NCBI GenBank assembly: GCA_001972305.1 | Contig: BDDD01001667.1 | Coordinates: 166,321 to 230,320 of the forward strand | Direction: 5' to 3' | DNA length: 64,000 nt | Source of the DNA: Cephalotus follicularis | Taxonomy: Eukaryota > Streptophyta > Magnoliopsida > Oxalidales > Cephalotaceae | Part shown: positions 1 through 63,325 of the stretch, in pieces | Numbering within the stretch: the stretch's first letter is position 1 | Layout of the letters: each line of letters begins with the position of its first letter | Program-made: the position numbers and the translations under genes | The notes under the pieces: model-generated | The model's input: only the letters and a program-made list of their open reading frames with translations | Told to the model about the DNA's origin: nothing | The model's database searches: none

Positions 1-1030
1 GATCTTGGCAAGGACATTATATGCAATGACTCGAGCCCAAAGTCATTCAAGGTATTCCTAGGTGTAAAGATTTAAATCTATTTATTACAACAATAACCAT
101 GCATACATGGCCTTCAAAAGCCTTGTACTCCATATCTCCTTTCTTCCATCTCTCCTTGCAAAGGCTTCTTTTACAAAAAGAACAATACATTTTCGAAAAG
201 AAAATTACATTTTAAAAATTACATGGAGAAATATAAAAATAAGGAAAAATAAATAGTGCACGCAGGCACCTTATTACAGACCTTTAAAGATAATAAATAA
301 ATTAAAATCCATCCACACATAGAAAACATAAAACTAGGTCAAAGTCCTTTTCGGGCCATCCATTGTGCATAAGATCTATATTATATCCAATATAATAAAA
401 CAACAAATGCCATAAATGATAACCAATTACACAATTTAATTCAATGATTATTAACTGAGCAAACTCCCACTAAATCAAGCAATGATTTTTAATCTTCCAA
501 GTGCCAAAATGTATAAAATCCAATTTTATCAAAAATCAGTTTTTTTTTTAATTAAAAGATGTCGACGCTTATATAAAGGCATCAACGTGTTTTCTGGAAA
601 TACATGAACAAGGCGTCGATGTTCATCCAGAACATCAAAGCGTTTCATGGAAATGATGAACAACGCATTGACGTCTTTGAATAACGTCGACGCGTTTTCC
701 AGAAACATGAACAAGACATCGACGTTTATCAAGAACGTCGACGTCTATGGCCCCTTGGGCAGTTTCTGCATTTCAAAAAATGCTAAAAATAATGGTTTAG
801 ACTATGGAATACCATTCTGGCATTCCATAATGCACTATGCATGTTCCAAACATTATTCTAAACACATTAAAACAACATTCCCAGCACAAAAACTCAATGA
901 AATCCAATTTCAATCAATTTTCATTAAGGCACTTAGAAAATTTAGTTTGATCACTAAACACATCCATTGATTAAACTATTAATCAGTACATCATCTAAGG
1001 CATACATATTCAATTAAGGATGATGTGAGA
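1..1030 (-). other. Non-coding leader of a minus-strand copia-like retrotransposon
   Basis: Read on the minus strand, this stretch follows directly after a primer binding site (1031-1042), so it should be the internal leader of an LTR element whose LTR lies to the right. It is A+T rich and has no credible ORF; the short frames at 529-970 only translate a palindrome cluster. No gag similarity is visible before the window edge. Assignment to a copia type rests only on the look of the LTR/PBS junction, so it is tentative. Confidence 0.35.
559..747. repeat. GTCGAC palindrome cluster 1
   Basis: About eight copies of the form (A/G)(A/C)GTCGACG(C/T) or one-base variants (ATCAACG, GTCGATG, ATTGACG, ATCGACG), spaced about 15-35 bp. 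Exact GTCGAC cores begin near 561, 690 and 737. This cluster lies inside the leader, beyond the PBS, not in the LTR. Confidence 0.8.
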
Positions 1031-1042
1031 CTCTCTGATACC
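1031..1042 (-). other. Primer binding site, initiator tRNA-Met type
   Basis: The reverse complement reads TGGTATCAGAGA, the usual plant LTR-retrotransposon PBS with one change at its last base. It sits one base inside an LTR terminus ending in TTCA. Confidence 0.75.
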
Positions 1043-1043
1043 A

Positions 1044-3163
1044 CTGAAGGAAACGGACATACCGAGTCCAATGTCAGAAATGGACTTAGGTGTGTAAGGT
1101 GTAGAATAAAACTTAAACATACAATCATGGCAGCGGAATAACACCCTATATAACAAAACAAGTCCATAATGACACGTCCACAGATCACATGGATCACCAC
1201 AGCATCTAATGAATTGAATTGAAGTCACCATTGCAAACAATGGTGACACACAAGCATGGAATAAAGAAGAAGGACCAAAAAATATACCAGTAGGTATAGG
1301 CTACTTCGATCATTACCGCTACAAGCTTGAGTAGATTCCCTTTGATCTTCTCCAAGCCACAGGAACAGCAAGTAATCCAACCAGCATAAACAAAGTGAAT
1401 GAACTCACTCACTCTCTCACTTAGCTTAGAAAAGGTGTATTGATTTTGACCAATGAAGTCAATGATCAATCCACCCTAGATAAGCTCTTGCTTGGTGTAT
1501 ATTAAATAAAGAGAACACACAATCTGCAGAGAACTTCGAGTTCTTGCCCAGTAAAATGTCTCAACCTCTCTTTTCCATTTTCTGCAGAAATGCTTATAAC
1601 TAGCCTACAATTCTCTCTCCCAATCTCCCATTCACTTAGGATCATGGCCTTCACTCCCTGAGAGTCCGAAGCCATGATTCCCATGTTTCTAAAATGTGTA
1701 GAATCTAAAGAAACCATCTAAGGATGTGAGAGAAGTAGTGCCCACGAAGTGAGGTCGTGCATAGGTTACACGTTCTGCTCAAAGACGTCGACGCCTTCCA
1801 AAGGACGACGACGCCTATGCAACGTGGCACTGAAGCACATCGATGCTTTCTAAAAGACATCGACGTCTTTATCAGAGAAAAGCATCGATGTCTTTCTAAA
1901 AGACATCGACGCCTTCTGGCCAGTCAAGCATAAATAGTCTAACTCTTTTAGTGATCTCATGTACCTTACAAATATTGGTTAAGTAAGATCAAGCATATGT
2001 GTTTCCACGAAATACAAAATCCACACAACCGATATTTGACACCAACGCTTAATATGTCCAACATATTAAAGATCTAATCATTATAAGGCAGGGACCCCTT
2101 AAAATCTTGGTTAAAACGAGAGGTGTTCATAAATTACCGAAATACCCCTAGGGTTCAGTTTAGCCATTCTAAATGGTCCTCGACCAATTTAAATGCTATT
2201 GGAATAATATCCAAATATTATCCATATGGAAAAATTAATCTAATTAATTTTCCCACAATTTATTACACACCTCATTAACCCTATATTTGCTAAGTCGTCG
2301 GTTCGCGTGCACTATAATCCCTTGTCATACTTAGCCCCGATTAAGGTCTAGGGTAAGGATATGTGTCAACCTTAGATAGTACCTCAATGGTTAAAATATC
2401 TGATCATTACTAGGACCTTTGGTAAGCTCTCCGAAATCTAATTTCCAGTCAACCTCAACCTTGGCCAAGGACTTCATAAGTCCAAAGTATAATCAGACAA
2501 TAATAGGGCCGATCACCTTCGCTCAGGTGTGATAATCCCTTATTGCGCACTCACTTATATTCATATAGATTCGATCATACCCAAAGACCACCCGATTGCC
2601 AGCCCTGCGCAAGGACTGGGTAAGGTGGAGATCAAAGCATAACCGTCTCCATACAATATATAGTAGTTACTCAGGTCTAAGAATCAGACGAGTTTAAGAA
2701 CTCGCTAAGTGATCACCACTTATACACAACCGCAACAAGTAGGAGTCACTATTGACAAGAGAATAGCGACTCTCCGAATAGTGTCTCCTACGCGGGTCCT
2801 ATTCAGTGTTCACGCTCCCAGCGCGGACCCCGTATTTGCCCTAGTGTCCAACACATATGGTAGTGAGAGAATCCATCCCCCGATTCCATGAGCAGGCAAC
2901 ATACGTGCAAGTCTATCCGGTTCACTAATGCCCACAAAGTGAACCTATGACTTGGAACAAGTTTAACATAAGGAATAAGGTAACCAATCTCACACCCTCC
3001 ATGCTAGGCATCCAACCTTATGTCAGGGCATCACAAGTGTAAGCAGGTAAATGATAAACTACTTCAATTAAGTGATAAAACACAAGTGTTATAGCCATAA
3101 CATAATTAGCATGCATCATATATTTACAAGGAATAAGATTGTTTCATATATGATAAGATATAA
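1044..3163 (-). mobile_element. LTR of a minus-strand copia-like element (outer boundary uncertain)
   Basis: The LTR 3' terminus is placed at 1044 because the minus strand reads CCTTCA, then one base, then the PBS. The other end is not certain. A plausible TGATGCATGC start lies near 3110, and the next recognisable LTR begins at 3164. There is no coding sequence; the short frames here are chance. The palindrome cluster at 1782-1915 lies inside it. The superfamily is inferred, not proven. Confidence 0.4.
1782..1915. repeat. GTCGAC palindrome cluster 2
   Basis: Six copies of the AAGACGTCGACGTCTT class and its CpG-transition variants (ACATCGACGTC, GCATCGATGTC, GACGACGACGCC). The copies alternate with short A/T spacers. 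Confidence 0.8.
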
Positions 3164-4038
3164 TGTGACAACCCATCTGATGGCTTGTCGGGTCACTATA
3201 TATAACACATAGTCGTGACATCATCACGTATGGATGGTGGCTTTGTGGAATACGATCACACCGCCACGCTTAAGTCGGTTTTCCTTATCTGTTTGGACGG
3301 TGGCTTTGTATGGAAGAAGAGATTCTTGCCATTTCTATTGATCCGATTTTCCTTCTCTGATAGAGTCTATATCTGCATATAAGGAAATCATTTAGTCACA
3401 TGATTTTTCCATTAGTTTTACACGTTTTTGTTGTTTTAAAAACTTATCTCTACATTTCTTGAAAAACCATATGCATTTTTATCAAACCAGAGGAACACCT
3501 TTGTCACTATCATTCTTGATCGATTTTGGCATCTTTTGAAGGTATTTTCTAAATGAAAGTTATAGTTTTCACTACATAGTTTCAATATCAATCAATAATT
3601 GGTATTAAAAACCGGTTAGAATTTATCTTTCAGCATGATTGTAGAGGCTTATTGGAAATAAAATTCTATTGTTATTTTTAATTTGTTTATCCATGGGATT
3701 TTTATGCATAACTTGCTATACTGATATTTGAAGCAAAGAAACCATGTTATAGACATATATATGTCACTATTTTATGATTTATGCATAGAAAAATCAGATT
3801 GTAGTTCTTAATTTGTAAACTGCAATATTCCAGAAAATATATCTTCAAGTTGCTATTCATATTGGTACCTTGCATTTTATATCATCATGTATTGATATAC
3901 GTATATAATGATGTTTACAAACTCATAAACCATGTTTCAGAACCTGCATTTTGCCGTTTGTAACTTGCGTTTATAAATTTGAAGTGTTATGCATGGTTTT
4001 CAATTGATTTTCTGCAACTGGTTTTGTGTTCTGGGTGT

Positions 4039-4285
4039 TAAGCGTCGATGCCTATTGTAAGCGTCGATGCATGTGTGTCTAAATTTTTTTGTAAAATGCC
4101 ATGCATGTGTTTAAACGTCAACGCTTTTGTCTATACACCGACGCTTATGTCGTGTTTTGCTGTTTGATTCTTCGACGTTTTGTTCAGTGTTTTTGTCATT
4201 GCTATGTCAAAACCGTCGACGCCTATGTTAAGCACCAATGCTTTTGACATGCACGTTGACGCTTCTGTTCGCACGTCGATGCTTT
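4039..4285. repeat. GTCGAC palindrome cluster 3 (GCGTCGACGC class)
   Basis: About nine degenerate copies (AAGCGTCGATGC, ACGTCAACGCTT, CCGTCGACGCC, ACGTTGACGCTT, ACGTCGATGCTT) in A-left. They lie about 0.88-1.12 kb from the LTR start and 1.37-1.61 kb from its end. Confidence 0.8.
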
Positions 4286-7611: not shown

Positions 7612-8999
7612 TATTCTGTAACACCCCTGAATGGTGGGAGCCCTTACAGGTCATAATACATAACTTAACAAAATAAATGCATAATTTCATTCACATTACG
7701 TGGTGGTCTGAAACATAACCTAATAACATATTTGAATCTAAACACAGTCTAAAAACTTTAACATAAACCAAAATGTCATAATCTGAAACCATAATCCGAA
7801 AAGAATCAAAATTTTCAAAATACTGGCCCTAACATGACCATATGACAATAGAAACATAATAGGATCAAACTCCTAGATGATCCTCAAACATAGGTGGACA
7901 CCTCTCACCACACATTGCGCTGATGCTCCTGATAACATGCCGCATGGAAACAAAAACGCGGTTGAGCAAACCTCAGTACGAATATGGAAAGTAAAAACAG
8001 TAAACAATAATTTTAAAACACAGTAAGATTTCATATTGAACTCAAAATAGAAATTTTAATAATCAGTTTAAACATTCTTTATAAATCACCTCTGAATATT
8101 CATATGAACCAAATCCATAACTTTCAAAACATAAAGCATACCTTTCAACACATAAAGTTCCATACCGAGCATCATAACATATCACATATCGGAACACATA
8201 TAAGCAAGGGATTCACGACGTCCACATGCCAGATAGAAATGACGTGTACGGCATTACACACTCAATTCTCATAACATAACATATCACATATTACAAGGAT
8301 CGATCCATACGCCTCTATCATAAATAACGGATCCATAATCCTCCACATAGGATATCATAACGTAGAGAGATGCCATGGACTAATCACACCGCCACGGAAA
8401 CTGTCATGCCTCCGTGCCAAAGGACATGCCTATGGTATGCCCCTTAGGTGGGTACAAAAAAAAGTCAGTACTTCACAAGTTCAAAAACATTGATTTTATC
8501 ATAATCAATTTAAAACACATAAAAAAGGTTTTCTGAACATATCCAAAAATCGTTATCAAATGATAGAATTTCATATTGCACATATTTTCATAATTGAAAA
8601 TCAACTTATTTAATTTCACAATAAAAGAGATGATCACAAATCACAGCTGAATTTATAAAGTCAAAAATATTGAATTTCATAAAAATATTAAAACTTACTT
8701 ATTTTCCAAAACATATCAAAATTCGAAGCATAACAGAGTTCATAAAACAGAAGGAATATGACAAGGAAGGAATTATCCGTACCTTATGCGATCACAGAAA
8801 TAACTTTATAAATTGATCGGTAAATTTGTAAACTGCCCATTGGTAGGAAAATTATCTCTAAGATACAAAAGCATTCACATAAGGACTTTAACTTAACTAC
8901 GGACATTAAATAAAAAATATAACGGTGTTTAAAACAGACCCCGATTTGTCAGAAGAACAAACGGATCAGAAAATTTGAAAGCAGAAATTTTCTGGACTC

Positions 9000-9209
9000 A
9001 CAGCCGACTGTAATAGAGCTCCAGTCGACTATTCAAGGCATGGCAGTTGACTACCCAACTTGGCCAGCCAACTAACCAAGCAGAACTGTAGCCAGCCGAC
9101 TGAAACAGGGGTCTAGTCGACTGTGAAAGGCATAGTAGCCGACAGATCAATAAGGCAGCCGACTACAAATTGCACAACAGCCGACTGTTCAAGAAAATAG
9201 CCGACTGTA
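9000..9209. repeat. GTCGAC palindrome cluster 4 (CAGTCGACTG class)
   Basis: About ten copies of CAGTCGACTG or CAGCCGACTG and close variants (CTAGTCGACTGTG, CAGCCAACTAA). The cluster lies 1.38-1.59 kb from the LTR 3' terminus. That is the same distance at which A-left carries the GCGTCGACGC class. Confidence 0.85.
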
Positions 9210-9422
9210 CTGGGCGACAGAACACAAATATCTAACAATCCTATGCAATTTTCTGTCAAAAATATGGATATCACATTACCAGAAGGCCACAACCATTTAA
9301 ATAAGACTCTATATGGTATTAAAATAGTAAAAGAACACTGAACATAAGAGAGATATAACAATAGTGGCTATACTTAAAGAGAGTGATAAATTCTAATCAA
9401 TTACATACATATATGTATATGA

Positions 9423-9443: not shown

Positions 9444-11003
9444 GCCGGATTAGTATCGAAATACCAACTACCAGTTTTCAAAACCAGCAAGCAACCTATA
9501 CAAGACGCCTAAAGAATTGTTAGCAGACTCAGAAACGATAACAGAGCATAGTGTGGAAGGAATCAAAAGGAAGCAAGATGCAAAAATTTAACAATCGGCA
9601 ATTTCATACAAAAGCAGGACGAATCATCTCACAAAACAAGAGAACTAACCTGCAATGGTGACCCAAAAACTGTAAAAGGACCACAACGATTCCCAAGACT
9701 TACAGTGGTTGTTTAGTAGGAAGAAGAGAAGGGAAAACATATGGATTCAAAGCCTGCCAATGTTATGCATATCAAAGAAAAACAATCCATAAACCGAACC
9801 AGACAACACTGCAAACGAAACTCAAGGAATCCAAAGGCTTGCAAGACACGATGTTTTCCAGGAAAGAAAGAGACGAAGATAGAGACAGAGCAATGGCTGA
9901 TGGCTTACTTAAACAGAAAGGGTAGACAATTTCGGGAGAGATAAGGAAAGAGGGAGAGATTTTGTGAGAATTTGAGGGAAAGAGGGAGAGAATCGGGTGA
10001 GATAGAGAGAAGGAGGGAGATAAAAATAGAATGGGAGAGATATGGGAGAGGGAAGGAAATAAATTAAAAAGATTTAGTTTTAAAGGATTAAAATAAAAAC
10101 TGATTTGATATCAGTTAAAAAAATAAAATAAAATGATTCTTACATATGCCTATACACATACTAACATACCCAATAAGCCAAGGCTAGTATCAATCAGCCA
10201 AAACACATAGACCAAAATAAAGTAGTCAGACTACTTAACAAAACAGATTAAAGGCCCAAAAATATGTACACGAACAAATAGGGTATTGCATCAGACATGA
10301 TGGTTTATATTTCAGTACAGTATACATATATATAAACAATATATACAAGAGGCCAAGTGGCTACAATCAGGAAGATATCAAGAATACCACAAAGGTGCAA
10401 ACAATATATTTGTCTGAAGACCAGTGGGTGTCACACACCGCTACCTCCTAGCCCCAACGATGCACCACCTAACGATCACCATACACTCCAACGATGAAAG
10501 AAAAGGTAAACAGTATTACCGGTATTTAGCGGGCAATTAAAAGTCACGATCTGCATTGCAAATAAGTTTGGTGTATAAGCTCTAGCCACCTCCTGGCTCC
10601 TGGGCCCACCTTTGTAATCAGTGATACACTCCGATCACTAGACCATCAGACTATCAATCACAATCAATACAGTTATTACATATATAATGTAATTTAAACA
10701 GTAGTTGTCTTTGGAGAAAACAGTAACATTAACAGTAACAGTGGTTGTCCTTAGAGAAAATTGTGGTTTAAAACATTCAGTTGTGCATATAGCACTTATT
10801 CCTTAAAATCCTTGAAACAGTAGCATTTATATAAAATACATTGGTAGATATAAAATACATCTATAACAGTGGCAATATGAAATTTGCATAACAGTATAAT
10901 CAATATCAAGTTAGTAAGGATGCATAACGGTTCACAGTGTGGAAACAAATATAATATCATGAGAATTGTACATAAACAGGACAAAAATGTTGACTGTATA
11001 GTC

Positions 11004-11190
11004 TTAAGTGTCCACGGTTTCTCTTAAAGCGTCCACGGTTCCTCTCAAAGCGTCGACAATTTATATTAAGCATCGTCGGTTCCCTCACTTAGGCGTCGAC
11101 AATTTCTACTCAAAGCGTCAACAATTCTCCTTAAGCGTCACCAATTCCCTCTTAAGCGTCGACGATCCCTTATTAAGCATCGACGGTTTA
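11004..11190. repeat. GTCGAC palindrome cluster 5a (AAGCGTCGACAATT class)
   Basis: Nine closely spaced copies with a regular arm: AAGCGTCGACAATT, AAGCGTCCACGGTT, AAGCGTCGACGATC, AAGCATCGACGGTT. In F2 and F3 the comparable position holds CAGTCGACTG copies. Confidence 0.85.
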
Positions 11191-12750: not shown

Positions 12751-13005
12751 TAGGCGTCGTAAGCAGCGATGCTTATCTTATGGGTGTCGACGATTTGTCA
12801 TTTGGCATTGACGCTTTTATATGTAGAAGGCACTAAGCGTCGACTTGTATATTATTTTATTGAGCAGACTTGAGTGTTAAACGTCAACGCTATTGAGCGA
12901 GGCGTTGACTCTTAAAGTGTGTAATTCTATTCTTAAACTCTGTACCAAAGCATTGACGCTTTAAACTTAACAGCTGGAGCTTTGAGTCTAGGGGCGTTGA
13001 CACTT
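12751..13005. repeat. GTCGAC palindrome cluster 6
   Basis: About nine copies or variants: GGTGTCGACGATT, GGCATTGACGCTTT, AAGCGTCGACTTG, AACGTCAACGCT, GGCGTTGACTCTT, AAGCATTGACGCTTT, GGCGTTGACACTTT. Confidence 0.8.
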
Positions 13006-13212
13006 TGCTCTGTTTTTCTGCAGAAAATTGCCATTCTTCAAGTTTTGATCTTTTTGTCTCCAATTCGCGTCAATTTGACTAGTATTTAAGCACTTTGTTT
13101 TTTATGGCCTTGTACCTGAAAATCAAATAAGAACAACCAAAGTAGTCTATTCCATGCATAAAAATATCACAAATAAATCATTACAAATAAAACATTTTTA
13201 TGCTAAACAAAT

Positions 13213-15179: not shown

Positions 15180-15330
15180 ATAGGCGTCGATGCTTATCCG
15201 CTGGTCATCGACGCTTATCCGCTGGGCGTGGATGCTTATGTCCTCTAAGCGTCAATGTTTCGTGCATTCAATCCCAGGCGCAGCAAAACCACATGCGTCG
15301 ACGCTTTCCCAAAGGCGTTGATGCTTTCCT
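15180..15330. repeat. GTCGAC palindrome cluster 7a
   Basis: Six copies: GGCGTCGATGCTTATCC, TCATCGACGCTTATCC, GGCGTGGATGCTTAT, AAGCGTCAATGTTT, GCGTCGACGCTTTCC, GGCGTTGATGCTTTCC. Confidence 0.85.
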
Positions 15331-15527
15331 GATATCATGAGATATCAATTCAGTAATCTCGATTCCAGGGGGAAATCTAACCCCCAAACTTACATGAAAT
15401 CCCAGAAACGTTCGTCGCAGGTGTAGTACGCACAACAGGTTATCAACTTATGTAACCAAAACATTCAACCAAAAACAATTCATGCAATCCGCAAATGAAC
15501 ATACCAGTACTGTAAATGTTCATATAA

Positions 15528-15612
15528 GGTGTCGACCTCTTCTTTAAGCGTCGACGTCTATTTCCTTAACACATGTGGGAGTCGACGCTTATAGCGTGAG
15601 CGTCGATGCTTA
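15528..15612. repeat. GTCGAC palindrome cluster 7b
   Basis: Four copies: GGTGTCGACCTC, AAGCGTCGACGTCTAT, GAGTCGACGCTTAT, GCGTCGATGCTTAGGCG. It lies in B-i about 1.1-1.2 kb from the LTR start. Confidence 0.85.
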
Positions 15613-16370
15613 GGCGCCCCAGAACGGCCATATTAATTGTCCCAACTAAACCAGGGGAAAACAACTTAATAATCATGTACAACCAGTTCGATTATTGACT
15701 TAGATTATACATGCATGGTCAGTTTACAGATTACAGTAAACATCTTTAAAACCCAGCAATCGAATAATCCAATATTAGATAACAGCAATGACAAAGCAGT
15801 AACTTCAATTCCAACTTTGCATGTATAATCCACTAAAATTTTCCCTACCTCTGGTTTCAAGTTAGAAATCTTGAAAGTCCATCTCTCTGTGTTCCAAAAA
15901 CTGGTCACAACAGCCTCAATCCTTGTACAGTAGCTCCAAGCTCGAAGCTCCACTGCTCCAAGGTTTAACAATGGTGCCCAACAATGGAGGAAAAGGGGTC
16001 TATCCTCCCTTGCCAATTTCTCATTGTTTTGCTATGTCTCTCTTTTTCTTTCAGGTGTTTTGCAGCAAGAGGGATGGAGTGGAAGGTGCTTTAATACTAA
16101 TAACAATTCTCTCCCCCTTCCTCCATAATAATTGCATGCGTTGTGCAGGTTCCCTTTTCCCCATTTCTTTGTCCTTCCCTCTTCTTTTTGCAGGTTTGCA
16201 TGTACCCACACTTGTCATATTCTTCCCCCCCTTTCAGTCATGCAGGTCAAGGGTTATGGTGCATGCCCAACACGTCCCATTTCGTGTCTCAAGGCGCATG
16301 CAAAGTGATCTTAAATTGCTCCCCTTACACGTTAGTCTGTCAGCATCTGAACGTGCCTAATATTTGACAA

Positions 16371-16525
16371 TAGGCATCGACGTTTCCATGCAGGCATGAA
16401 CGCTTTGGTCATTTCTTGAAATGACGTCAACGCATTACTTTCACGTCGACATGCATGTGTATGTCTTGTGGCATGTGTTTTATTGGCTTAGGCGGTAACG
16501 CTTTCCTCAAGGCGTCGACGCTTTT
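16371..16525. repeat. GTCGAC palindrome cluster 8, U3-proximal
   Basis: Six copies, including GGCATCGACGTTT, GACGTCAACGC, ACGTCGACATG and AAGGCGTCGACGCTTTT. They lie 192-346 bp from the B-i LTR start. Confidence 0.85.
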
Positions 16526-23958: not shown

Positions 23959-24134
23959 AAAGGTGTAACGCCCGATATTTTCGTTATTGTAATATTTCGT
24001 TTTAAGATGTAATCTTATGCTTGACTTAATGAAAATATTGGAGATTTTGACCTCAATGATGTTTTCCAAACTCTAAATATTGTTTCGAGGAAAGGAATGT
24101 GTATGTTAAACCAAAACGATGCAGCTTTGGGATA

Positions 24135-24269
24135 AACGCGTCGATGTCTTTGTAAAGACGTCGACGTCTATGGGAACACGGGCGCACGTGAATGCATGTA
24201 CATGCACATCGATTTAGATGAAGACATCGACACCCTCTTATGAAAGAGTAAAAGGCATCGACGTCTTTG
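24135..24269. repeat. GTCGAC palindrome cluster 9, U3-proximal
   Basis: Copies GCGTCGATGTCTTTG, AAGACGTCGACGTCTATG, ACATCGATTTAG, GACATCGACACC and GGCATCGACGTCTTTG. They lie 171-305 bp from the B-ii LTR start and belong to the GACGTCGACGTC class. Confidence 0.85.
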
Positions 24270-32448: not shown

Positions 32449-32496
32449 TGCATGTTATTCTGTCAGCAGAGTAACGTGCCTGACATTCGATATCTA

Positions 32497-36776: not shown

Positions 36777-37171
36777 CTCCGTCACGCCCCCGTTAATCAA
36801 GAAGACAACATTAAAATGGTAAGGCAATTAACACATAAATACAACTCATGTGAAAACCATAAAATTTAAACTTTTAAGCAATATGTCAGTTGCGGAAGCA
36901 TAAAAATTCATAAGCTATAAACTCATAGCGTGCATCCCATACTACACGCAACCCAAAACAAGTCCGTCATTGTTAATCACCCACAAATGGACCGTGATCA
37001 CAGTATAATATTAAATCCATCATTAACATCACCATAAGTATAGTACATCAGAAATCCTTTAACGAAGCAAATTATTACAAACAGGAGAACAAATAAACTA
37101 AGAACAACATAACAACTTCGTTCTTCGTCCATGCCAGTCCAATCGGTCCACTGCATCAATCTGTAAAGTAG

Positions 37172-37202
37172 GGGGTTAGTCTTTGTCCTCACTCGGCTAA
37201 GT
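37172..37202 (-). promoter_or_regulatory. Conserved LTR block in B-iii 5' LTR
   Basis: Partner of the block at 30972-31002, with one G-to-A-type change (GGGTTAGTCTTTGTCC). Confidence 0.55.
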
Positions 37203-37979: not shown

Positions 37980-38310
37980 AAAGACGTCGATGTCTATTAA
38001 AAGGGATCGATGTCTTTGTCCATCAACGTCGATGTACAAGTCCTTAGTGTCAGCGTGTTCTACTGCTAAAGACGTCGATGTCCATCTTTTACGCATCGAC
38101 GCTCAAGGTCTGGAACCTTAAAACGTCAGCGTATTGCTTATGGTGTCGACGAGTTAGGGTAGGAACCCTAGGCGTCGACGTGTAATACGTCAAAACCCAA
38201 ACAGGTGGCCTAAGGCATCGATGTCTTTCTATATACGTTGATCTGTTTCACATCAGTAACCAAGCAATAACCCAAAGAAGTCGATGTTTATTAAAAGGCG
38301 TCGACGTTTA
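37980..38310. repeat. GTCGAC palindrome cluster 11a
   Basis: The same array as 31394-31720 in the other LTR. Several sites differ by single CpG transitions, for example GGCGTCGACGTTT here against GGCGTCAACGATT there. Confidence 0.85.
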
Positions 38311-39072
38311 TCGTGTAGCAGTCGTCTTCTTCCTCACAACTTAACAGGCAATAGCCATTTCAACCATATACATGCAAGATAGCATGAAATCAAGGTAGGA
38401 AACCAACATGCAGATACATATTACATATCTAGCATATCATGGCATTAATCCAGTGAGCAAAATCAATTCAATACTCATGCAATTTATACACCAAAACATA
38501 ACCCATGCATGAACGTTAATCTCAGAATTATAGTTATGGCTTTCCCCTACCTCTTGTTCCAAGTTAGGAACTGGAAAGTCCACCTATTTGTGTTCCAAAC
38601 TGGTCACAGCATCCCCTCCACATCCGTCCTGTTGCTGCTATCCCACAAGCTCTAAGTCCCAAGCTCCAAATTGCTTCAACAATGGTAGTTTTGGTCTCTC
38701 TCTCCTTAAGTTTCTGTTTTCTTACCCTCACTGTGTTTTCCTTCTTCTTATTTTCTCCTCCTTCATTTTTGGCAGAGAAGGGTGATTTATGTTGGTTGGA
38801 GTTTGTTTCCTTCTGCACCAATGCCAGAATCCCCACTTCTTCACACCCTCCCCACACCTGCGTGCATGGCACACCAGGTGTCTCCCTTTTGCTTCCACGG
38901 CCCATGCATGCCCTCACATGCCTTCCCATTTCTTCCATTTCGGTCCTAGCAGTGTAGGGTACCATATTGCATGCTCAACACGTTTTGATTTGCATGTTAA
39001 AATGCATGGATAAAGCCCCCCCTTTGCATGTTATTCTGTCAGCAGAGTAACGTGCCTGACATTCGATATCTA

Positions 39073-39227
39073 CGCATCGACGTCTTCTTCAAAGACGTTG
39101 ACATTTTTTTTCCCCTTTACACGAGGGTGTCGATGTCCTTTCCTGTATCGACGTGCATGTGGATGCGATTACGTGCGCCCCTTTGCTTCAAGGACATCGA
39201 TGTGTTTCTAAAGGAGTCGACGCGTTT
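39073..39227. repeat. GTCGAC palindrome cluster 11b
   Basis: Partner of 32497-32650. GCATCGACGTCTTC, AAGACGTTGACATT, GGTGTCGATGTCC, GACATCGATGTG and GGAGTCGACGCG. Confidence 0.85.
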
Positions 39228-40143
39228 CCTCCAAAAAGAAATAGCATGTAATGTAAAACAGACATATGTCTTTGCATGGCATGTAAAACAGAGCAGTGGC
39301 AGCCTAAACGTGTCATGCATGATAGATGTATGCCATCAGGTGTACAACATGCAAGAGTGGTGACTTGCATGTGCTCTATTCCATCTGCAAACCTACAACC
39401 TGCAAAACATAAGAGAAAAGAGTGAGAAGAGGTGCATGTGAGAGAGAGAAGAGAAAAGTGGGAACCTTGAGTTATGACTAGAACTGGTCACTGGATCCAC
39501 GAGTTCTATATATCAGTGTTGCATGAGTGTTCAGAGAGGTTAGTAATCGTCTGGAGAGAAGAGTTCAACCACTGGATTGATTGTGCATGTTAGTTGGGGT
39601 TCCAAGTGGAGTTAGAAGCTTGAATTTAAGAGGTAAGCTTCTGCATGATTTCAAATGTGTTATAATCGTTAAATAGGTATATATGTACTGATTGTGTACT
39701 ATATATATCTCCTGTTAACAAGCACATAGAGTTTAATTGCTGGAATTGGGGTTCAGTTGATATAAGGTTGGAACTCAAAAGGAAGTTTGAGGCTTAGGAA
39801 TCCCTGGTAAGTTGTTGGTTTAATTTAGTGTTGATATGGTAGTTAGGCAACCATGTTCGGTTACTGATTTTCGTTGCATATACATGTTAACATGCACCTA
39901 TAGCATTAAACGTCTGTATTGTTGGTGTTGAGTGAAGTTGGAACTCAAGGAGAAGAATCAATCAAATTTGATTCTGGGATAGCACTTGAGGCAGGGGTTT
40001 TTACATGTTTTAGAAGATATGATATGTATAGCATGTCTGGATAATTTCTCTGTGATTGCGTGTTATTATTTTGGTTTGAATTGGAAGTTGAACGTGCATA
40101 CTATGTTTTGGTTAAACCACTGCCTGACGTTTCTGCACAAAAA

Positions 40144-40260
40144 CAATCGACTGTTGAACCTAACAGTCGACTGTTCAATGTAACCAGCCGACTGTTAGGG
40201 ACAAACAGTCGACTGCTTAATGAAAACAGCTGGCTATTCTTATGAACAGGCGACTGTTAA
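40144..40260. repeat. GTCGAC palindrome cluster 12 (CAGTCGACTG class)
   Basis: Six copies: CAATCGACTGTT, CAGTCGACTGTT, CAGCCGACTGTT, CAGTCGACTGC, CAGCTGGCTATT, CAGGCGACTGTT. It has the same LTR position as 50098-50213. Confidence 0.85.
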
Positions 40261-43505: not shown

Positions 43506-43628
43506 CTCTGTGCTGAGTAATGAAGCCGAATGGGGTATTTATAGGAAGTCTTCAGCCGCCTTGGTTTTGTCATTTTCTGACACGTGTCTTCTTCTTTCGT
43601 CCGTTTCTTGACATGCATCCTTTTTCTT

Positions 43629-43915
43629 AAAGCGTCGGCGGTTAAGCGCTAAGCGTCACCGCTTAAGCCCCAAAGTACTGCCGCTTTTCCCTCTAAGCGC
43701 TGCCTGTTGACGTGTAACAAAGGAAAATTAACGCTTGAAAGCGTCGTCGCTTTCTCCATTACACTATAACAAATTGTCGACGCTTTAACTCACAAATTTG
43801 GTAACCAGAAAAGAAGCCAAACTGTCGACGCCTTAAAATAACTGTCGACGCTTAATGGAATTTCACCAAACTATCGACGCTTTAAAATAGGCAGTTGACG
43901 CTTTCAATGTTCCAA
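43629..43915. repeat. GTCGAC palindrome cluster 13, U3-proximal
   Basis: About nine copies: AAGCGTCGGCGGTTAAGC, AAGCGTCACCGCTTAAGC, AAAGCGTCGTCGCTTT, AATTGTCGACGCTTTAA, CCAAACTGTCGACGCC, ACTGTCGACGCTTAA, CTATCGACGCTTTAAA, GCAGTTGACGCTTT. They lie 183-469 bp from the LTR start. Confidence 0.9.
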
Positions 43916-44552: not shown

Positions 44553-46349
44553 TGTAACACCCCCGATTCAAAACTGGGAACACCACCGATTTGGGATCGG
44601 GATGTCACACAAAACTGAACTATAGAAACATGTCAAAATATCTTAATCTTTATTTAAATCATCAAATTTAGTTAAACTATCTTTCATTAAGAATCCTGAA
44701 GCTGTAAATCCAAAACATTACGATAAACATAAAACCTTAAATAATATTCAAATTCAAACCTAAGCTGAAGTCTCAAAAATATCTGAAGGTCCACACATGA
44801 CCACAACATCACTAAAAGAAAAGAATTCAACTTATTAGAACTCCTCAAGACATAGGTGTTGCTCTCATCACACTTTCCCCTGATTCCTCTGAATACCTGC
44901 CGCATCGAAAACAAAAACGCGGTTGAGCAAACCTCAGTACAGATATAGAATAATAAAACAGTTTATGAACAAAACAGTTTACGAAACATAATAGTACGCT
45001 ATTTTTTCAAAAACAGAACAATTCATAAATAAACCAAATTTATGCAATTCAATGGTGCTCATGTCAAATATATATATATATATATCTGTTCACAAACTTT
45101 CATATCTGTTTCCATAACTTTTCATGACGGTGGTTCATACTGAGATATGCAATACGGTTTAAATACATTTATATATATGCAAGGGATCCTGCAGAATCAA
45201 CATGGCCGACGGAACGACATGTACGGCACTACACAATGAATTCCCATATCCGAATCAGAACAGAACATATTTTTCCTAGGGCCGACCCATGCGCCTCTAT
45301 CAAAAATGGGATCCAAATCCTATTAACAGGATATAAAAACCAGTGAGAGACACCGTAGACTGATTACAGCGCTACGGATAGTGTCATGTCCCCGTGCCAG
45401 GCTTGCGACATGCCTATGGTACCCCAATAGATGGTTATATTCTAAGTAGTAACAATTTCAAAGTAATGACTATATCAAAAATTATTTCAAAATATTGATT
45501 TACTCCAAAACCAATTCAAATCATAAACGGTTTTTCTGAACATTTTCCGAACATATCCGAAATCATTACCATATCCGTATTATCAAAAGTCAACATACTT
45601 TTATAATTGAAAATTGTACTCATTGAATTTCACAAATAATTAAAAGAGATGATAATAGTAAAATCCGTATTTTATTCATATAAATTAGAATACGAAAATC
45701 AAAATAAAAGATCAATACATCTTTCATAAAATAATGTTTAAAACAATAGAGGTATCCATGAAAATCCGTACTAAAAGAAAAACTGAATTCATTTCAATAA
45801 AAACATAGGAAAGATCCACGAGCGAAGAATCCATACTTATTTCACCAAAAGCAAAAACTAAACTTTTCTAATAAAATCGTGAAGATAACCAAGAACGAGA
45901 AAATCCATACATTATTCATAAAAACATAAATGTGATTTCTTTCAATAAAATCACTGGAATATAATCAAGAACGAAACATCTGTACATTGCTTATAAACGG
46001 AATTTATTGTAACAAAATCATAGGGTGATAACCAAGGAAGAAAAATCCATACATGTTCATAAAAGCAAAACTGAATTTAATTTAATAAAATAAAGTGCAG
46101 ATAGCCAAGAATGAACGTATCCGTACAACATTCATGAAACAAAACTAAATTTATTTCAATAAAATCGAATGATGATAATCAAACATGACGAATCCGTACC
46201 TTAGCCGCCCAAATCTAAACAATCACAACAACGAATCTAAAGCATACGCGGAATCACTCTAACCTTCACCACAGATGTTTTGGAATCCAAAGCAGATAAA
46301 CCAAACCATGTTACAAACTATCAGACACATATTACAATTTCCAGGAGGA

Positions 46350-46644
46350 TAAGCGTCGACGTATACGACCTGAGCGTCGATGTTTACAACATAAGCGTCC
46401 ACTCTAAAACATGGCGTTGGCAAAAATCATGACTAAGCGTCGAGGAAAAGATGATAGTTCATGACATGCACGCCGACGTCTAAACAAAGTGTTGACGCTT
46501 ATCATCAATGCGTTGACATGAAACCAAAATAGTCGACGCTTTGACACAAGCAGCACGATGAAAAATAATTTTCTATGCATAGACGTCGACGTATACGACA
46601 TAGGCATCCATGCTATGGGTTAAAAACATGAAAACGCATCGATA
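46350..46644. repeat. GTCGAC palindrome cluster 14
   Basis: About eleven copies or variants: AAGCGTCGACGTATAC, GCGTCGATGTTTAC, GCCGACGTC, GTGTTGACGCTTAT, ATGCGTTGACATG, TAGTCGACGCTTTG, GACGTCGACGTATAC, ACGCATCGATAC. Confidence 0.85.
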
Positions 46645-47102: not shown

Positions 47103-47234
47103 GTAAGCGTCAATGTTATTTAAAGCTTTAACGCCTAACCCTTCGCATACAAAGGCATAGACGTTATGACAGAGCGTTGACACTTTCACTACTGGAAGAA
47201 AAATGAGAAATAATGCTAAGGCGTCAACGCTTAA
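47103..47234. repeat. GTCGAC palindrome cluster 15, U3-proximal
   Basis: Degenerate copies AAGCGTCAATGTT, AAAGCTTTAACGCC, GGCATAGACGTT, GAGCGTTGACACTTT and AAGGCGTCAACGCTTAA. They lie 148-279 bp from the A3 LTR start. No intact GTCGAC is left. Confidence 0.75.
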
Positions 47235-48828: not shown

Positions 48829-49001
48829 TGTAATAACCGCAACTTCAATTAATGTATATTGATCTAATTTTGAAATAAAATATACATTTTAATTGAGTTA
48901 TTTGTCCAATTATACTAATTTCTATGATTGGTAAATGCTTCGGGTTGATTGGATGTGCAATTGGAGATGTATCAAGGGTTGGAAACCATAAACCAGCCCA
49001 A

Positions 49002-49083
49002 ACAGCCGACTGTCACAGGGTAACAGTCGACTGTTGGCCACGTGAGGAGGGCAGTCGACTGCCTACTATAGCCAGTCGACTGG
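49002..49083. repeat. GTCGAC palindrome cluster 16a, U3-proximal (CAGTCGACTG class)
   Basis: Four copies: CAGCCGACTGTC, CAGTCGACTGTT, CAGTCGACTGCC, CAGTCGACTGG. They lie 173-254 bp from the LTR start. Confidence 0.9.
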
Positions 49084-50097
49084 AATTGCCAGAACAGGTT
49101 CCTGGCATGTACAAAGACAAGAATTGACAGGTAGGTATGGGCACATGCATCCACCTCCTGCCAGAACATGCAAAAGTGGAATGTTTGCATGTTCTCTCCA
49201 GATCAACAACCTGCAAATTGATAATTAATGAGAGAAAAGTGAAGAGAGGACAATGCATGAGGTGGAAAGAAAGAAAGAAAAATGTGAGTGCATGTGAGTA
49301 GGTAGGAATCTGACGAAATTATAAGCCTTTGAGACTTAGATCAGCTGATTGAATGGTGTTTGAGTGTTAGAAACACTGAGTGAAGTGAGGAATCATTGAA
49401 AGCTTGCATTGGTAGGATTGGAGAAAGCTCAAAGAAGGAACCTTTGAAGCTTTAGAGACTTGGTAAGTCCTTGATCCGAATTCTCTGTTATTATGTTGAT
49501 AAAATGTGACTAGGAATGTTAAATATCTTCTGCTAATGGATTAGAATTAACAAACCTTTCGAATTGAAATAGGAAGAAGTAATGGGATCAAGTGGAATTG
49601 GTGATATAGTCTCTAGAATGTATTTTAATTGCTGTTAGGGTTATGATATATGCTTAATGATTCCTAAGTATGAATATATCTTCTGTCAACAAACTTAAGA
49701 TCAATGAGTCCTATATTGAATGGTATTTGACATAGAGTTCAGAGAAAAGTGGTGAATGGTAAGAATAATGTTAGGACTCCATAAGCTAATGATTAAGCTA
49801 CTGTTAAATTATTAAAACATACTGGTATTGATGCATGTGTTCATAAACAAACATGCATAGATTGATTCTGCTGGAATTGAAAGAGTGATTGGTGAAAAGT
49901 GACTTGGAACTCAAAGAGAAAGATCAAACTCAATTGATCTTGGGATAGCGATTTGAGGTAGGGGTAATGATATGTCATGGAAGATATGAGTATGCATATT
50001 ATGTATGGATATTTTCTGCATGATTACATGTATTGAACTGATTGAAAATTGAACTTGGTATTACATGACTTGCTATTTCTACATTTTCTGGGCAGAG

Positions 50098-50213
50098 GCA
50101 GTCGACTGCCACCCTTGACAGTCGACTACTCAAGAAATACAGTCCACTGCCAAGGCAAAGCAGTCGACTGTACAACAAAGGCAGTCGGCTAATCTTGATG
50201 GCAGCCGACTATT
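50098..50213. repeat. GTCGAC palindrome cluster 16b (CAGTCGACTG class)
   Basis: Six copies: CAGTCGACTGCC, CAGTCGACTACT, CAGTCCACTGCC, CAGTCGACTGTAC, CAGTCGGCTAAT, CAGCCGACTATT. They lie 1.27-1.38 kb from the LTR start. Confidence 0.9.
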
Positions 50214-51181
50214 CTGGGTAGAAATTGCATAACATTGATTGAATTGCTACTGTTTGGTACTGTTATTGAATTGTATATGCTACCACCATATAGTATACAC
50301 TGTTTGATGTTATTTAACATCACTACTACTTATATTGCAATGATCGAACGAACTATGTGCTATATGCCCAAATCATGGTTTTAAACACCATTTTCAAATG
50401 GAAACTATTATTTACAAGAGCTACTGAATTGTGATATTGTCACTGAATATACTACTGTTTTGTTAGTATATACTGTTTTTGGTGCTCTTAACACCACTAC
50501 CACTTGTATTCAAGGATTGGAAACTAATTATGGGCTATGTACCCAAATCATGATATCAACTATCATTTTTCAAGTGAATAATTATTGCCAAATGAACTAT
50601 TGATTTTCCTCCTATATGAGAGGTACTTACTGTTTTGTTTCCAAAACTGGAAACCATTATTGAAGTGATATCGTTTCCTCCGAAGAGAGGTACGATAAGT
50701 GAATTGTCAAAGTTCTAAAGAAAACTACTTTATATTTCATGTTATTGATATATGTAATATTATTGAACTTAATTGATTGAATTGATTGTCTATGAGTGCC
50801 GTGGTTCAGTGGCGGAGGTTGTCATTGACTACGGAATGTGATTCTGGGTGCCAGGAGTTGGCCAGAGTATCACCCCAGTGTTCTGCAATGCAGAAATTGA
50901 TTGTTAAACTACCCGCCAACGCCGGTAGTAAGTGTTACATTTTCTATCGTCTTCAGAGCGTAGGGTGATAGTTAGGTGGTGCGCAGTCGGTGCTAGGAGT
51001 TAGCGACATGTGACACCCAAGTGAGTGTTGAATTGATTGTACCCTTGTGCGGTATTCTTGCATATGGATTGTTTATGGCCACTTGGCATGATTGCTTATA
51101 TATTGACTCATTAAATGTTATTTTGATATAAACTGTCATACATGTTGCATTCATATACTCCTTATCATACATTATCATTCT

Positions 51182-58002: not shown

Positions 58003-58346
58003 TGTTGACATTTATGTCTCAATCCTAAGTTTTGATGATAACATATTTGTGTTTAACAAAGTTTCTTGATGTGCAAGAAAGCCATGAAGTGAGAAAAACA
58101 GCACAAGAATTCTGCAGATACAGGTCAGACCGTCGACGCCCAAGGTTAAAGCGTCAGCGCTTTAGGAGGCAGTCGAGACAAGGGCCTAAGCGTCTACCGG
58201 TGGAGCGTTTGGAGAAGTGGAAGAAACACTCAAACCGTCGACGCCCAGATTCAAGCGTCTGCGCTTTGAGTACTAAGCGTCTGCTCTTTGTGCAAAGCGT
58301 CTGCCGTCTAAACCAGTGAGCACAATTAGAATTAAAACTGGCCAAA
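58003..58346 (+). mobile_element. Sirevirus 5' LTR, 3'-truncated
   Basis: Starts TGTTGACATTTATGTCTCAA and is almost identical to 62831-63175. Identity stops after CTGGCCAAA at 58346, where integrase sequence begins, so the rest of the LTR, PBS, gag and protease are deleted. It is inserted in the leader of family E. Confidence 0.9.
58130..58308. repeat. GTCGAC palindrome cluster 17a, U3-proximal
   Basis: ACCGTCGACGCCCAAG, AAAGCGTCAGCGCTTT, AAGCGTCTACCGG, AACCGTCGACGCCCAG, AAGCGTCTGCGCTTTG and AAGCGTCTGCTCTTTG. They lie 127-305 bp from the LTR start. Confidence 0.9.
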
Positions 58347-60484: not shown

Positions 60485-60809
60485 TTAACATGTTTCTATG
60501 ATTGTTGTGAATATGTATGCTTGCTCAAAATGCTTATTTTCTCATTTTTGCATCATTTGTATTCATTCTCGCTCATTTACGGAAAATCTGCAGAAAAACA
60601 GAGCAAAGCGCCGACTGTTGCTTTTAAAGCGTCAGCGCTTTAAAGCAAAATTAGGGTTCGAAATTGCGGAAATTGGTCTAAGCGCCGACGCTTAACCCCA
60701 AACTGTCGACGCTTTAATCGCGTTTTAAGACAGTAAGCGCCGTCTGCCACGCCTTTTTCACGCACAAATACAAACCCTAACTTCTAAACACTCCATCTTC
60801 GGCGATTTC
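60485..60809 (+). promoter_or_regulatory. Spacer between pol and the downstream ORF, possible internal promoter
   Basis: About 325 bp with no ORF of note. It carries palindrome cluster 17b (60601-60745), then CACAAATACAAACCCTAACT near 60763, which contains an AAACCCTAA (telo-box-like) string, shortly before the ORF start. The promoter role is inference only. Confidence 0.35.
60601..60745. repeat. GTCGAC palindrome cluster 17b, upstream of the second Sirevirus ORF
   Basis: AAAGCGCCGACTG, AAAGCGTCAGCGCTTTAAA, AAGCGCCGACGCTTAA, CCAAACTGTCGACGCTTTAA and AAGCGCCGTCTGCC. Confidence 0.9.
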
Positions 60810-62111
60810 TTGGCGATAATCACTCAAAAAACACAGATTGACCTTCGTACAACATCAATCATGACTAGATCTAAGAATTTTGAGGCAGGACAAGGCTCCA
60901 AGGCAAAGAAGAACTCAGCTGGGCAAAAAGGGAAGGGGAAAGCTGCTCAATCTGCTACTCCTGAGGTTACTCCATCTATTCCTAGGTACCCTGAGGCATA
61001 TTTCAATAGAAAAATACTTGTAGGCAAAGTCTTAGATTTTGATTTTTGCTCTAGAGAAGGGTTTCCTATTGTTGAATGGATTAGGGTTCAAGGTTTAGAA
61101 CCATTTTTCTCTATAAATTTGCCTAGTTATCCCGAACTTATGAAAGAATTCTATGTGCACATACTAGGTAGCTCTATGGATAGCTTAACCACTAAGGTCA
61201 AAAATAAGACCATTGACTTGGACTTAAGTAGACTAAACACTATCCTAAATGTTCCGAACCTTGGTGCTAGGGGTTGGAACCAACGGTCTTGGATGACTAG
61301 CGAAGATTTCAATAGACAAGACTGTGTGCGTGTGTTGTTTGGTGAGAACGCTGATCATGATCAGCGAATGTATACTAGGAATCTCCCTTCGCATTATCGA
61401 TTCCTACACCGTGCGGTATGTACGCATATTTTGCCAAAAGTCGGTGGGTTCGATGAGGTGACCCACATGGAAGCCTACACGATGTATCACTTGATTACTG
61501 GGAGAAAGATAAATGTTCTCTTCCTGATGCTAAATCATATGCATTCGATTCACGACCAAGAGAACGCAAGAATAGGTTATAGCAATATAATAACCAAGAT
61601 TCTCCACTTTTTCAATATCGACCTTACTGGAGAAGTAAACCATGATCTCCAAAGTGCTGACAAGCTTGGGAAAGGAACCCTTGGGAGAATGGGGTTCAAA
61701 AAGCACAAGAGACTCGGTACGTGGATTCCTAGGGACGAGGACTCCAATCAAGTAGTTGAAGAGGAAGGAGAAGCTGAGTTGGGGGAAGAAGCTGAAAATG
61801 TACCACTGCAAATCGAACCTCAAGCTGAACCACTCCCGGATGTCAATCTTCCGAGGAGTAGGCTAGATGAGATCTTTGATGCTATCAAAGGACTGCAGCG
61901 AAATGTTGAGGAAATGAAGATGAGTATGCAATCTGTGAAGAGGCGTCAAAAGAGAATTGCCAAAAAGTTTGCTGACACAGGCATTATCGAATATGGAGGA
62001 CTTATATCTTCATCTTCTAGCCACGACGACATTCCCCCGGATGATGCAGCAACCGATGACATGGAGGGAGAGGTCGGTGGTGACGATGCGGGCACTCACA
62101 TGGACGAATGA
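60810..62111 (+). CDS. Sirevirus downstream ORF, plant-transposon-domain protein
   Basis: The longest uninterrupted ORF with a plausible product (434 codons from 60810, or 417 from the ATG at 60861, MTRSKNFEAGQG, which I prefer). Residues below are counted from 60810. A basic S/K/G-rich N-terminus (about 20-50) is followed by a domain at about 60-290: FDFCSREGFPIVEWIRVQGL, PELMKEFYVHIL, NTILNVPNLGARGW, LPSHYRFLHRAVCTHILPKV and EAYTMYHLITGRKI. This pattern matches what databases call a putative plant transposon protein domain, of unknown function. Next come an acidic linker (EEEGEAELGEEAEN), a predicted coiled coil (LDEIFDAIKGLQRNVEEMKM, about 350-395) and an acidic C-terminus. It sits where Sireviruses carry their so-called envelope-like ORF. 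I see no signal peptide or membrane segment. The pol before it is dead, yet this frame is open. Confidence 0.85.
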   Translation: MAIITQKTQIDLRTTSIMTRSKNFEAGQGSKAKKNSAGQKGKGKAAQSATPEVTPSIPRYPEAYFNRKILVGKVLDFDFCSREGFPIVEWIRVQGLEPFFSINLPSYPELMKEFYVHILGSSMDSLTTKVKNKTIDLDLSRLNTILNVPNLGARGWNQRSWMTSEDFNRQDCVRVLFGENADHDQRMYTRNLPSHYRFLHRAVCTHILPKVGGFDEVTHMEAYTMYHLITGRKINVLFLMLNHMHSIHDQENARIGYSNIITKILHFFNIDLTGEVNHDLQSADKLGKGTLGRMGFKKHKRLGTWIPRDEDSNQVVEEEGEAELGEEAENVPLQIEPQAEPLPDVNLPRSRLDEIFDAIKGLQRNVEEMKMSMQSVKRRQKRIAKKFADTGIIEYGGLISSSSSHDDIPPDDAATDDMEGEVGGDDAGTHMDE

Positions 62112-62830
62112 GCATATGCATCTCATTTTCATTTGCATTTTATGTTTCTGCTATGGACTTGTAGTTTGTTTTGCAACTTGTATAAATTGGAAGTGATATT
62201 TGTAACAAATACTATTGTGTAATGACAATATTTTGTTTTAATTTCAATGTGTACTGGTTTAAACATTGTGGATTTGGAATGCTTGGACTTGAATTTATAA
62301 TTTTCAGCTTGTTATGACGGAAGATTATTTTTAAAATTCTATATGCAGATTGTGTATTGGTGTTCTAGCTTTGAAATATTTGATTTTGGTATGTTTGGAT
62401 TAGTGGGTTGTTCAAATTGTGGACTATGCATTGTCTTTATCTCAACATGCACAAATGACATTATTTGTTGAAAAGTTAAAATTCGAGCATGTATTGTATG
62501 CTCAAATGACATTATTTATGGGTTTGGATATAGCTTTTTCATCCATTTTTGAGATGATAACAAAAAGGGGGAGAAAATTGTGAGATTGGGAGAGAAAATT
62601 ATGGGAGATAGCATAATCATGCATAAGGGATTTAATGACAAAGTAAAATACCCATTATGTGACTAAGGGGGAGGTAACAAATTCAGGGGGAGCAAATGCT
62701 TTTGTGCACTTTTGTGCACTTAACAAGTTCTTAATATTTTACATTTGTACTTTATGTGTTAATGTTTTTAACTTAACGATTATTATGCTTAAAATGAAAC
62801 AAATTTTGTCATCATCAAAAAGGGGGAGAT
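62112..62830 (+). other. Sirevirus 3' untranslated region with repeated polypurine tracts
   Basis: Non-coding and T-rich. AAGGGGGAG-type tracts occur at about 62564, 62667, 62685 and 62818. The last, AAAAAGGGGGAGAT, directly precedes the LTR and is the likely primary plus-strand primer. Several such tracts are, as I recall, a known Sirevirus habit. Confidence 0.75.
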
Positions 62831-62956
62831 TGTTGACATTTATGTCTCAATACTAAGTTTTGATGATAACATATTTGTGTTTAACAAAGTTTCTTGATGT
62901 GCAAGAAAGCCATGAAGTGAGAAAAACAGCACAAGAACTCTGCAGATACAGGTCAG

Positions 62957-63325
62957 ACCGTCGACGCCCAAGGTTAAAGCGTCAGCGCTTTAGGAGGCAG
63001 TCGAGACAAGGGCCTAAGCGTCTACCGGTGGAGCATTTGGAGAAGTGGAAGAAACACTCAAACCGTCGACGCCCAGATTCAAGCGTCTGCGCTTTGAGTA
63101 CTAAGCGTCTGCTCTTTGTGCAAAGCGTCTGCCGTCTAAACCAGTGAGCACAATTAGAATTAAAACTGGCCAAAGCGTCGAAACCCAAGGCTAAGCGTCA
63201 GCGCTTTGAGGTGCCGGTCAACTCCAAAGCTTTGAACGCCTGCACTTTGAGCTGACAATTTGAATTTGAGATCCCTAAAGGTCAAATAAGCGTCGACGCT
63301 TTAAAGGTGACAGTCGACGATTTGG
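62957..63325. repeat. GTCGAC palindrome cluster 17c, U3-proximal
   Basis: Contains the copies listed for 58130-58308 plus AAAGCGTCGAAACC, AAGCGTCAGCGCTTTG, AAGCGTCGACGCTTTAAAGG and ACAGTCGACGATTTGG. It lies 126-494 bp from the LTR start and ends about 95 bp before the TATA box. Confidence 0.9.

Follow-up and report, generated by a model that had tools for sequence, protein, structure and literature searches.

Short, nearly palindromic sequences centred on GTCGAC recur in clusters along a 64,000-nucleotide stretch of Cephalotus follicularis DNA (contig BDDD01001667.1, positions 166,321 to 230,320; here called the window), which is densely filled with decayed long terminal repeat (LTR) retrotransposons. 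The question raised by this locus is why Ty1/copia and Ty3/gypsy elements in one genome should carry the same core, and what the arrays might do for, or to, these elements. A first reading made from the letters alone (the sequence-only reading) had counted about 49 GTCGAC by eye against about 7 expected, and had reported at least 20 clusters. The exact count is 49, about eight times the mean of 60 dinucleotide shuffles (mean 6.25, standard deviation 2.35, maximum 11), so that the reported enrichment over shuffled sequence stands for the one 64-kb window that all box statistics given here cover. The 8-mer with the strongest over-representation, among those occurring at least eight times in the window, is CGTCGACG (20 copies against a first-order expectation of 0.1), and AAGCGTCGACGCTT is found at 67 sites with up to three mismatches, against 0.82 in dinucleotide shuffles. 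Together, the shuffles and the 8-mer ranking rule out chance as the origin of the GTCGAC and CGTCGACG excess.

A search with three consensus boxes (A, B and C), allowing up to four mismatches, returned 179 box sites. Of these, 33 are scattered and 146 are grouped into 22 clusters, each with between 4 and 11 boxes, in agreement with the number of clusters first reported. Clusters occupy about 8% of the window and contain 47 of the 49 exact cores, a share that is partly circular because the GTCGAC core was used in defining them. Three clusters are duplicates, two of them from a gypsy LTR pair and one from a copia LTR copy; counting one copy per pair leaves 19 clusters and 126 boxes. The CpG observed/expected ratio is 1.32 inside clusters and 0.63 outside.

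All of the boxes had been described as perfect palindromes, and this did not survive inspection. The 14-mer proposed for one class is present exactly once, the 16-mer proposed for another is absent, and CAGTCGACTG is present seven times; 31 of the 49 exact cores pair at ±4, and just 6 are symmetric through ±7. Perfect palindromy was therefore rejected. The box centre is even and symmetric, with no intervening bases, and changes confined to half a box are frequent. When each LTR pair is counted once, 43 exact cores remain, and their arms covary, forming 111 pairs at positions ±4 to ±8 against a permuted mean of 83.6 (p 0.0002); most of this reflects differences in box type between clusters. The clusters at 9005, 40148, 49007 and 50103 are wholly of C type and the remainder are A or B, four of them with a single C, a tidy division that is favoured by labels resting on matches to three chosen consensuses. 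Mismatch rates within boxes are 0.194 at CpG positions, 0.181 at A/T positions and 0.269 at other C/G positions, giving no sign of faster CpG decay inside boxes; 79% of the CpG mismatches are transitions.

The spacing of the boxes is a point that goes beyond the sequence-only reading. Of the 107 gaps between adjacent boxes, 51 measure 20–21 bp, against 7.5 when an equal number of boxes is placed randomly within each cluster (largest of 5000 trials, 19), and only one gap between neighbours is shorter than 19 bp. The linkers are close to random, with a mean identity of 0.32 (random 0.26) compared with 0.73 for the boxes, for which site selection imposes a floor of 0.56. A single tandem satellite inserted into these elements had been named at the outset as an alternative source of the clusters. 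Such a satellite should be alike between neighbours over the whole unit, linker included, and with mean linker identity this low it is not; boxes 20–21 bp apart with near-random linkers therefore argue against a simple satellite. That each cluster is a functionless minisatellite, produced by slippage and now decaying, with a core shared by common origin or chance, seems to us very improbable. Tandem Repeats Finder does report 20–22 bp arrays at several clusters, and linker identity reaches 0.50–0.53 in two arrays, but on average the boxes have kept their likeness with linkers near chance, and neither the height of the core count nor the fact that copia shares the core with several gypsy-type LTR groups suits this explanation. 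Judged by their sequences, the arrays look more like repeated docking sites than like a decaying satellite.

To which elements do the arrays belong? Pfam searches, covering 27 of the 87 open reading frames (ORFs) of at least 90 amino acids, identified gypsy protease, reverse transcriptase and RNase H as well as copia reverse transcriptase and integrase. The clearest gypsy element spans 30581–39236. In tblastn with the longest 60 of 120 gypsy relatives and the longest 40 of 120 copia relatives, it has pol matches at 32879–36466 on the minus strand and at 33560–35995 is 84% identical to one pol protein. It encodes RVP_2, RNase H and Tf2-1-type SH3 domains; best hits, the SH3_Tf2-1 domain and an LTR length of about 2.1 kb would place it in Del/Tekay. 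Each of its paired LTRs carries two arrays, one 5′-terminal and one in the middle. LTR pieces at 13.9–16.5 kb and 24.1–25.4 kb are related to these LTRs by alignment.

The element at 58003–63323 is a Sirevirus-like copia, in which a 344-bp LTR stretch is duplicated at 58003 and 62831 with 99% identity. The polypurine tract and attachment site at 62831, AAAAAGGGGGAGAT followed by TGTTGACA, are of the Sirevirus type, which we take to read AAGGGGGAGAT and TGTTGA. Sirevirus elements are marked by repeated boxes, termed RM, with at least eight repeated dyad boxes per element and extra copies in the linker before an env-like ORF. The copia element has ten boxes in the part of its 3′ LTR that lies within the window and four in the linker, with partial dyad symmetry, and the linker array (60612–60707) precedes an ORF at 60729–62108 that, from its position, may correspond to the Sirevirus env. 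The protein encoded there matches PF20167, and its 79 relatives, 46–91% identical, are all from Cephalotus follicularis in a search that reaches close relatives only, which suggests an expansion in Cephalotus.

Bousios et al. (2010; PMC2829016) describe Sirevirus RM boxes as many palindromes, rich in CpG, that occupy the upper LTR as well as the linker preceding the env-like ORF, and the copia element has this layout. The sequence-only reading had mentioned conserved Sirevirus palindromes in U3; the layout is indeed repeated here, without the perfect palindromy. The core differs: CGG-CCG in that account, CGTCGACG or CAGTCGACTG in the present arrays, and in the copia element CGTCGACG with no CGG-CCG. 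Tnd-1 likewise has no CGG-CCG core, its RM ACAATCGATTGT having a TCGA centre, and the Vitis RM CGGTCGACCG contains GTCGAC (PMC2829016). The spacing here is mostly 20–21 bp, and no spacing was encountered in the part of the paper available. Bousios et al. compared Ty1/copia elements and termed RM Sirevirus-specific, a restriction that does not hold here, since arrays lie within the paired LTRs of the gypsy element. The Sirevirus part of our observations is thus already known, and the arrays in Ty3/gypsy LTRs go beyond that paper.

The sequence-only reading had placed the clusters in LTRs of many unrelated families, among them gypsy, Tat-like and copia Sirevirus elements. The core is indeed present in both gypsy and Sirevirus-like copia elements, though several of the gypsy clusters lie in related LTRs, and no Tat-like element was met among the ORFs scanned, no search having been aimed at one. 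Paired LTRs establish the LTR location in two elements, and homology does so in others; six clusters (563, 1789, 12767, 43636, 47111 and 49007) are insecurely placed, and the one at 60612–60707 is internal.

One group of LTRs, F2, shows what can change in an array. F2 LTRs lie at 39.9–41.5 kb, at 49.9–51.5 kb and, reversed, at 10.3–11.4 kb, the third aligning to the first two. Measured from a common anchor, boxes lie at offsets 163, 183, 204, 225, 246 and 266 in the 40-kb LTR and at 160, 181, 202, 222, 244 and 267 in the 11-kb LTR, so that all six positions agree within 3 bp; in the 50-kb LTR each of five boxes is 12 bp closer to the anchor. The boxes of the 40-kb and 50-kb LTRs are of C type (CAGTC/GACTG). 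Nine of the ten boxes in the 11-kb LTR instead have GACGCTT-like right and AAYYGTC-like left arms, and the tenth is still C-like. Matched offsets with different arms indicate, in this one case, a joint change of the arms that left slot and spacing as they were. Group G (4.0, 9.0 and 46.4 kb) was considered as a second case and set aside: its LTR bodies are homologous, and the slot is too diverged for box-by-box alignment. No pol domain could be tied to the F2 LTRs among the scanned ORFs; they are probably gypsy-type, because a stretch of about 31 bp at 41189 and 51191 is common to them and the gypsy LTRs. This stretch, ACTTAGCCGAGTGAGGACAAAGGCTAACCCC, is kept in otherwise diverged LTRs, in several copies with a TTTCAG-like site next to it, an arrangement that we take to resemble a branch point plus 3′ splice site.

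Sequences beside the arrays also recur. Of all 5-mers in their 45-bp flanks, TTCTG shows the strongest enrichment, at 13 of 38 array ends (four clusters without known direction included) against 1.9 expected. Where direction is known or inferred, it stands upstream in 8 of 15 clusters and downstream in 2 of 15. The p-values for TTCTG are too small, because the motif was first spotted by eye and because clusters within an LTR group do not count as independent cases.

We consider it slightly better than an even bet that the arrays regulate LTR retrotransposons in cis, as modules made up of rows of sites for a host DNA-binding protein that would probably be homodimeric. Each box would be made of two half-sites joined at GTC/GAC. 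An even centre without spare bases, together with frequent half-box changes, suits half-sites better than a pairing stem. With boxes two helical turns apart, dimers bound to successive boxes would sit on the same face of the helix, and this phasing and the CpG-rich arrays fit rows of a dimeric protein. The position of the arrays also counts in favour, since those of the paired gypsy LTRs occupy the 5′ and middle parts and another array precedes an ORF, as do the lattice kept with changed arms in the homologous F2 LTRs and the more often upstream position of TTCTG. From U3, the bound protein would most likely set how active the promoter is, either by enhancing it or by blocking its silencing. 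Comparable repeats of transcription-factor sites occur in the U3 of ONSEN heat elements, as the BII boxes of Tnt1 and as the 21-bp repeats of HTLV-1; the factors there are known and the repeats belong to single families, and we know of none common to copia and gypsy elements in one genome. To our knowledge, WRKY, DRE, bZIP, VOZ and MYB sites do not seem to match the box as a whole.

Several results weigh against a row of protein sites. Comparison of the gypsy LTR pair (31076–32659) gave no sign of constraint after insertion, because change in the boxes was no slower than elsewhere in the compared part (19/224 in boxes, 80/1350 elsewhere). Arm covariation within clusters has p 0.08, and position ±6 alone shows none (p 0.34). 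A helical lattice for gaps above 24 bp was tried and rejected: the 45 gaps of 25–110 bp do not follow a 10.5-bp period (p 0.19), and periods of 11.5–12 bp give uncorrected p-values of 0.006–0.012. In a scan for TATA[AT]A, TATA-like sites lay downstream of some arrays only. The protein reader, its host origin and its transcriptional effect are inferred.

A broader form of this proposal is possible but doubtful. Copia and gypsy elements would share a code, made up of a TTCTG leader and helix-phased GTC/GAC boxes, whose readers would be a few dimeric proteins of the host. Lineages of LTRs would switch as a block between CGTCGACG and CAGTCGACTG, keeping slot and spacing, and so change regulatory channel to share or avoid a host factor.

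The boxes might act instead through folding. Any two boxes can pair, so array transcripts or single strands could form hairpins that are cut to small RNAs and nucleate methylation, making the boxes liabilities or silencing signals; we think this unlikely as the principal explanation. Twelve segments, covering 10 places and at two of these both strands, were folded and compared with shuffles. Six have z below −3, down to −8.7, and palindromes of maize Sirevirus elements are reported to be small-RNA hot spots (PMC5311732, PMC10760457). Three further segments, however, are near −2 and the last three lie between −0.88 and +0.11, the highest being one strand of a 146-nt part of a ten-box array; mutual pairing is expected of any repeated palindrome, and hairpins need neither 20–21 bp phasing nor asymmetric boxes. 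The two mechanisms may in any case be compatible. Quite unlikely, in our estimation, is a protein encoded by the elements themselves, such as the product of the copia PF20167 ORF, that would bind the boxes and lift silencing as VANC does, with the arms tracking the protein. The array directly before that ORF and the exclusively Cephalotus relatives of its product would agree with this, and the arm switch in one slot resembles motif turnover in VANDAL transposons (PMC5735166), but no such ORF was found in gypsy elements among those scanned. VANC binds tandem motifs of VANDAL transposons and removes silencing; like the boxes, these motifs are short, form non-coding tandem arrays and turn over between related elements (PMC5735166). 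They are YAGTATTAY, AGTTGTCC and AGTTGTAC, which are not palindromes, and their binding protein is element-encoded, unlike the near-palindromic boxes with their proposed host protein.

The idea of regulation has a precedent in Bousios et al., who proposed it for Sirevirus boxes on similar grounds, the role of palindromic boxes in plant LTRs being left open in that 2010 description (PMC2829016). A box grammar common to copia and gypsy, with preferred phasing and swappable arms, points to a common reader and can be tested. Such a reader would be a protein on which many retrotransposon families depend, or the plant's means of finding them.

The sequence-only reading knew of no report of a core shared by Ty3/gypsy and Ty1/copia elements in one genome. 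One palindrome in two transposable element superfamilies of a single genome has a precedent in maize, where CACCGGACNNNGTCCGGTG is common to Sirevirus Copia and Helitrons (PMC10760457). The partner there is a Helitron, and maize Ty3 elements are generally without an obvious structure peak, whereas here gypsy LTRs bear the arrays. The matches listed from the open-access literature include none that describes arrays of this kind in Ty3/gypsy LTRs; a study of Del elements describes CpG islands, and "palindrom" is absent from its main text (PMC4029996).

Relatives were also sought outside this genome. Three sets of relatives were assembled in the analysis, A1 (12 of 120), A2 (11 of 120 plus the window ORF) and A3 (28 of 79 plus the window ORF). 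In viral contigs, a 32-position pattern of two spaced boxes had no matches, and pol alignments gave 19 and 5 candidate stretches with no confirmed relatives. Genome contigs yielded nine pol relatives (L001–L009) among 18 candidate stretches, 37–63% identical to the query; these are most likely contamination in bacterial assemblies, mostly from plants and some perhaps from other eukaryotes. None of the nine has a GTCGAC cluster, with at most two single sites, a weak negative as the pieces are 3.2–7.5 kb long and largely coding.

Box arrays and associated features in the window
Feature	Coordinates	Strand	Remarks
Array, mixed A/B, 7 boxes	555..747	+	possibly gypsy LTR; LTR assignment and strand weak
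Array, 5 boxes, mostly B	1781..1915	+	TTCTGC just upstream; 1857-1919 aligns to 38035-37977; assignment weak
Array, 9 boxes, A type	4038..4285	+	probable gypsy LTR group G; 4827-5653 homologous to 8434-7617
Array, 5 boxes, C type	8997..9210	-	probable gypsy LTR group G; gypsy pol remnants 5612-7289 (-)
Array, 10 boxes	10983..11189	-	arms given in LTR sense in the text; slot as in 40148/50103 arrays
Array, 8 boxes, A type	12759..13006	-	strand inferred from 22-bp match to copia linker array flank
Array, 10 boxes	15180..15612	-	middle of group D gypsy LTR, by homology
Array, 5 boxes	16370..16524	-	near 5′ end of group D gypsy LTR, by homology
Array, 4 boxes, B type	24134..24267	+	near 5′ end of group D gypsy LTR, by homology
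Gypsy 3′ LTR	30581..32659	-	about 93% to partner LTR; pol on - strand
Array, 11 boxes	31394..31745	-	middle of gypsy 3′ LTR
Array, 4 boxes	32515..32649	-	5′ end of gypsy 3′ LTR
Gypsy 5′ LTR, same element	36781..39236	-	arrays 37988-38323 (10 boxes) and 39078-39218 (4 boxes)
Array, 6 boxes, C type	40140..40259	+	F2 LTR; gypsy-type inferred from shared 31-bp stretch
Array, 7 boxes, A type	43628..43883		element not placed
Array, 7 boxes, A type	46349..46595	-	probable group G LTR
Array, 4 boxes, A type	47103..47233		element not placed
Array, 5 boxes, C type	48999..49186		element not placed
Array, 5 boxes, C type	50095..50214	+	F2 LTR
Partial 5′ LTR, Sirevirus-like copia	58003..58346	+	array 58134-58281; 99% to 62831-63174
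Array, 4 boxes, internal	60604..60715 (60612-60707)	+	directly before env-position ORF
Env-position ORF	60729..62108	+	Pfam PF20167 (Transposase_32)
Start of 3′ LTR, copia element	62831..63323	+	array 62962-63315; follows polypurine tract AAAAGGGGGAGAT
Stretch of about 31 bp, ACTTAGCCGAGTGAGGACAAAGGCTAACCCC	14308-14337, 30951-31003, 37154-37203	-
Stretch of about 31 bp, ACTTAGCCGAGTGAGGACAAAGGCTAACCCC	25000-25030, 41189-41219, 51191-51212	+

Twenty-two identical bases, TCTGCAGAAAAACAGAGCAAAG, occur at 12998–13027 and 60588–60609, directly before two arrays in different elements. Given this identity with the flank of the copia linker array, the array at 12.8 kb may belong to another Sirevirus-like element. 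Elsewhere, 27722–28267 consists of tandem arrays of CGATACGATA-like units with periods of 5, 11, 16, 40 and 80, and 53382–53566 contains two young-looking tandem duplications (61 bp, 96% matches; 38 bp, 100% matches), both of whose units include TCAGTCGAGG.

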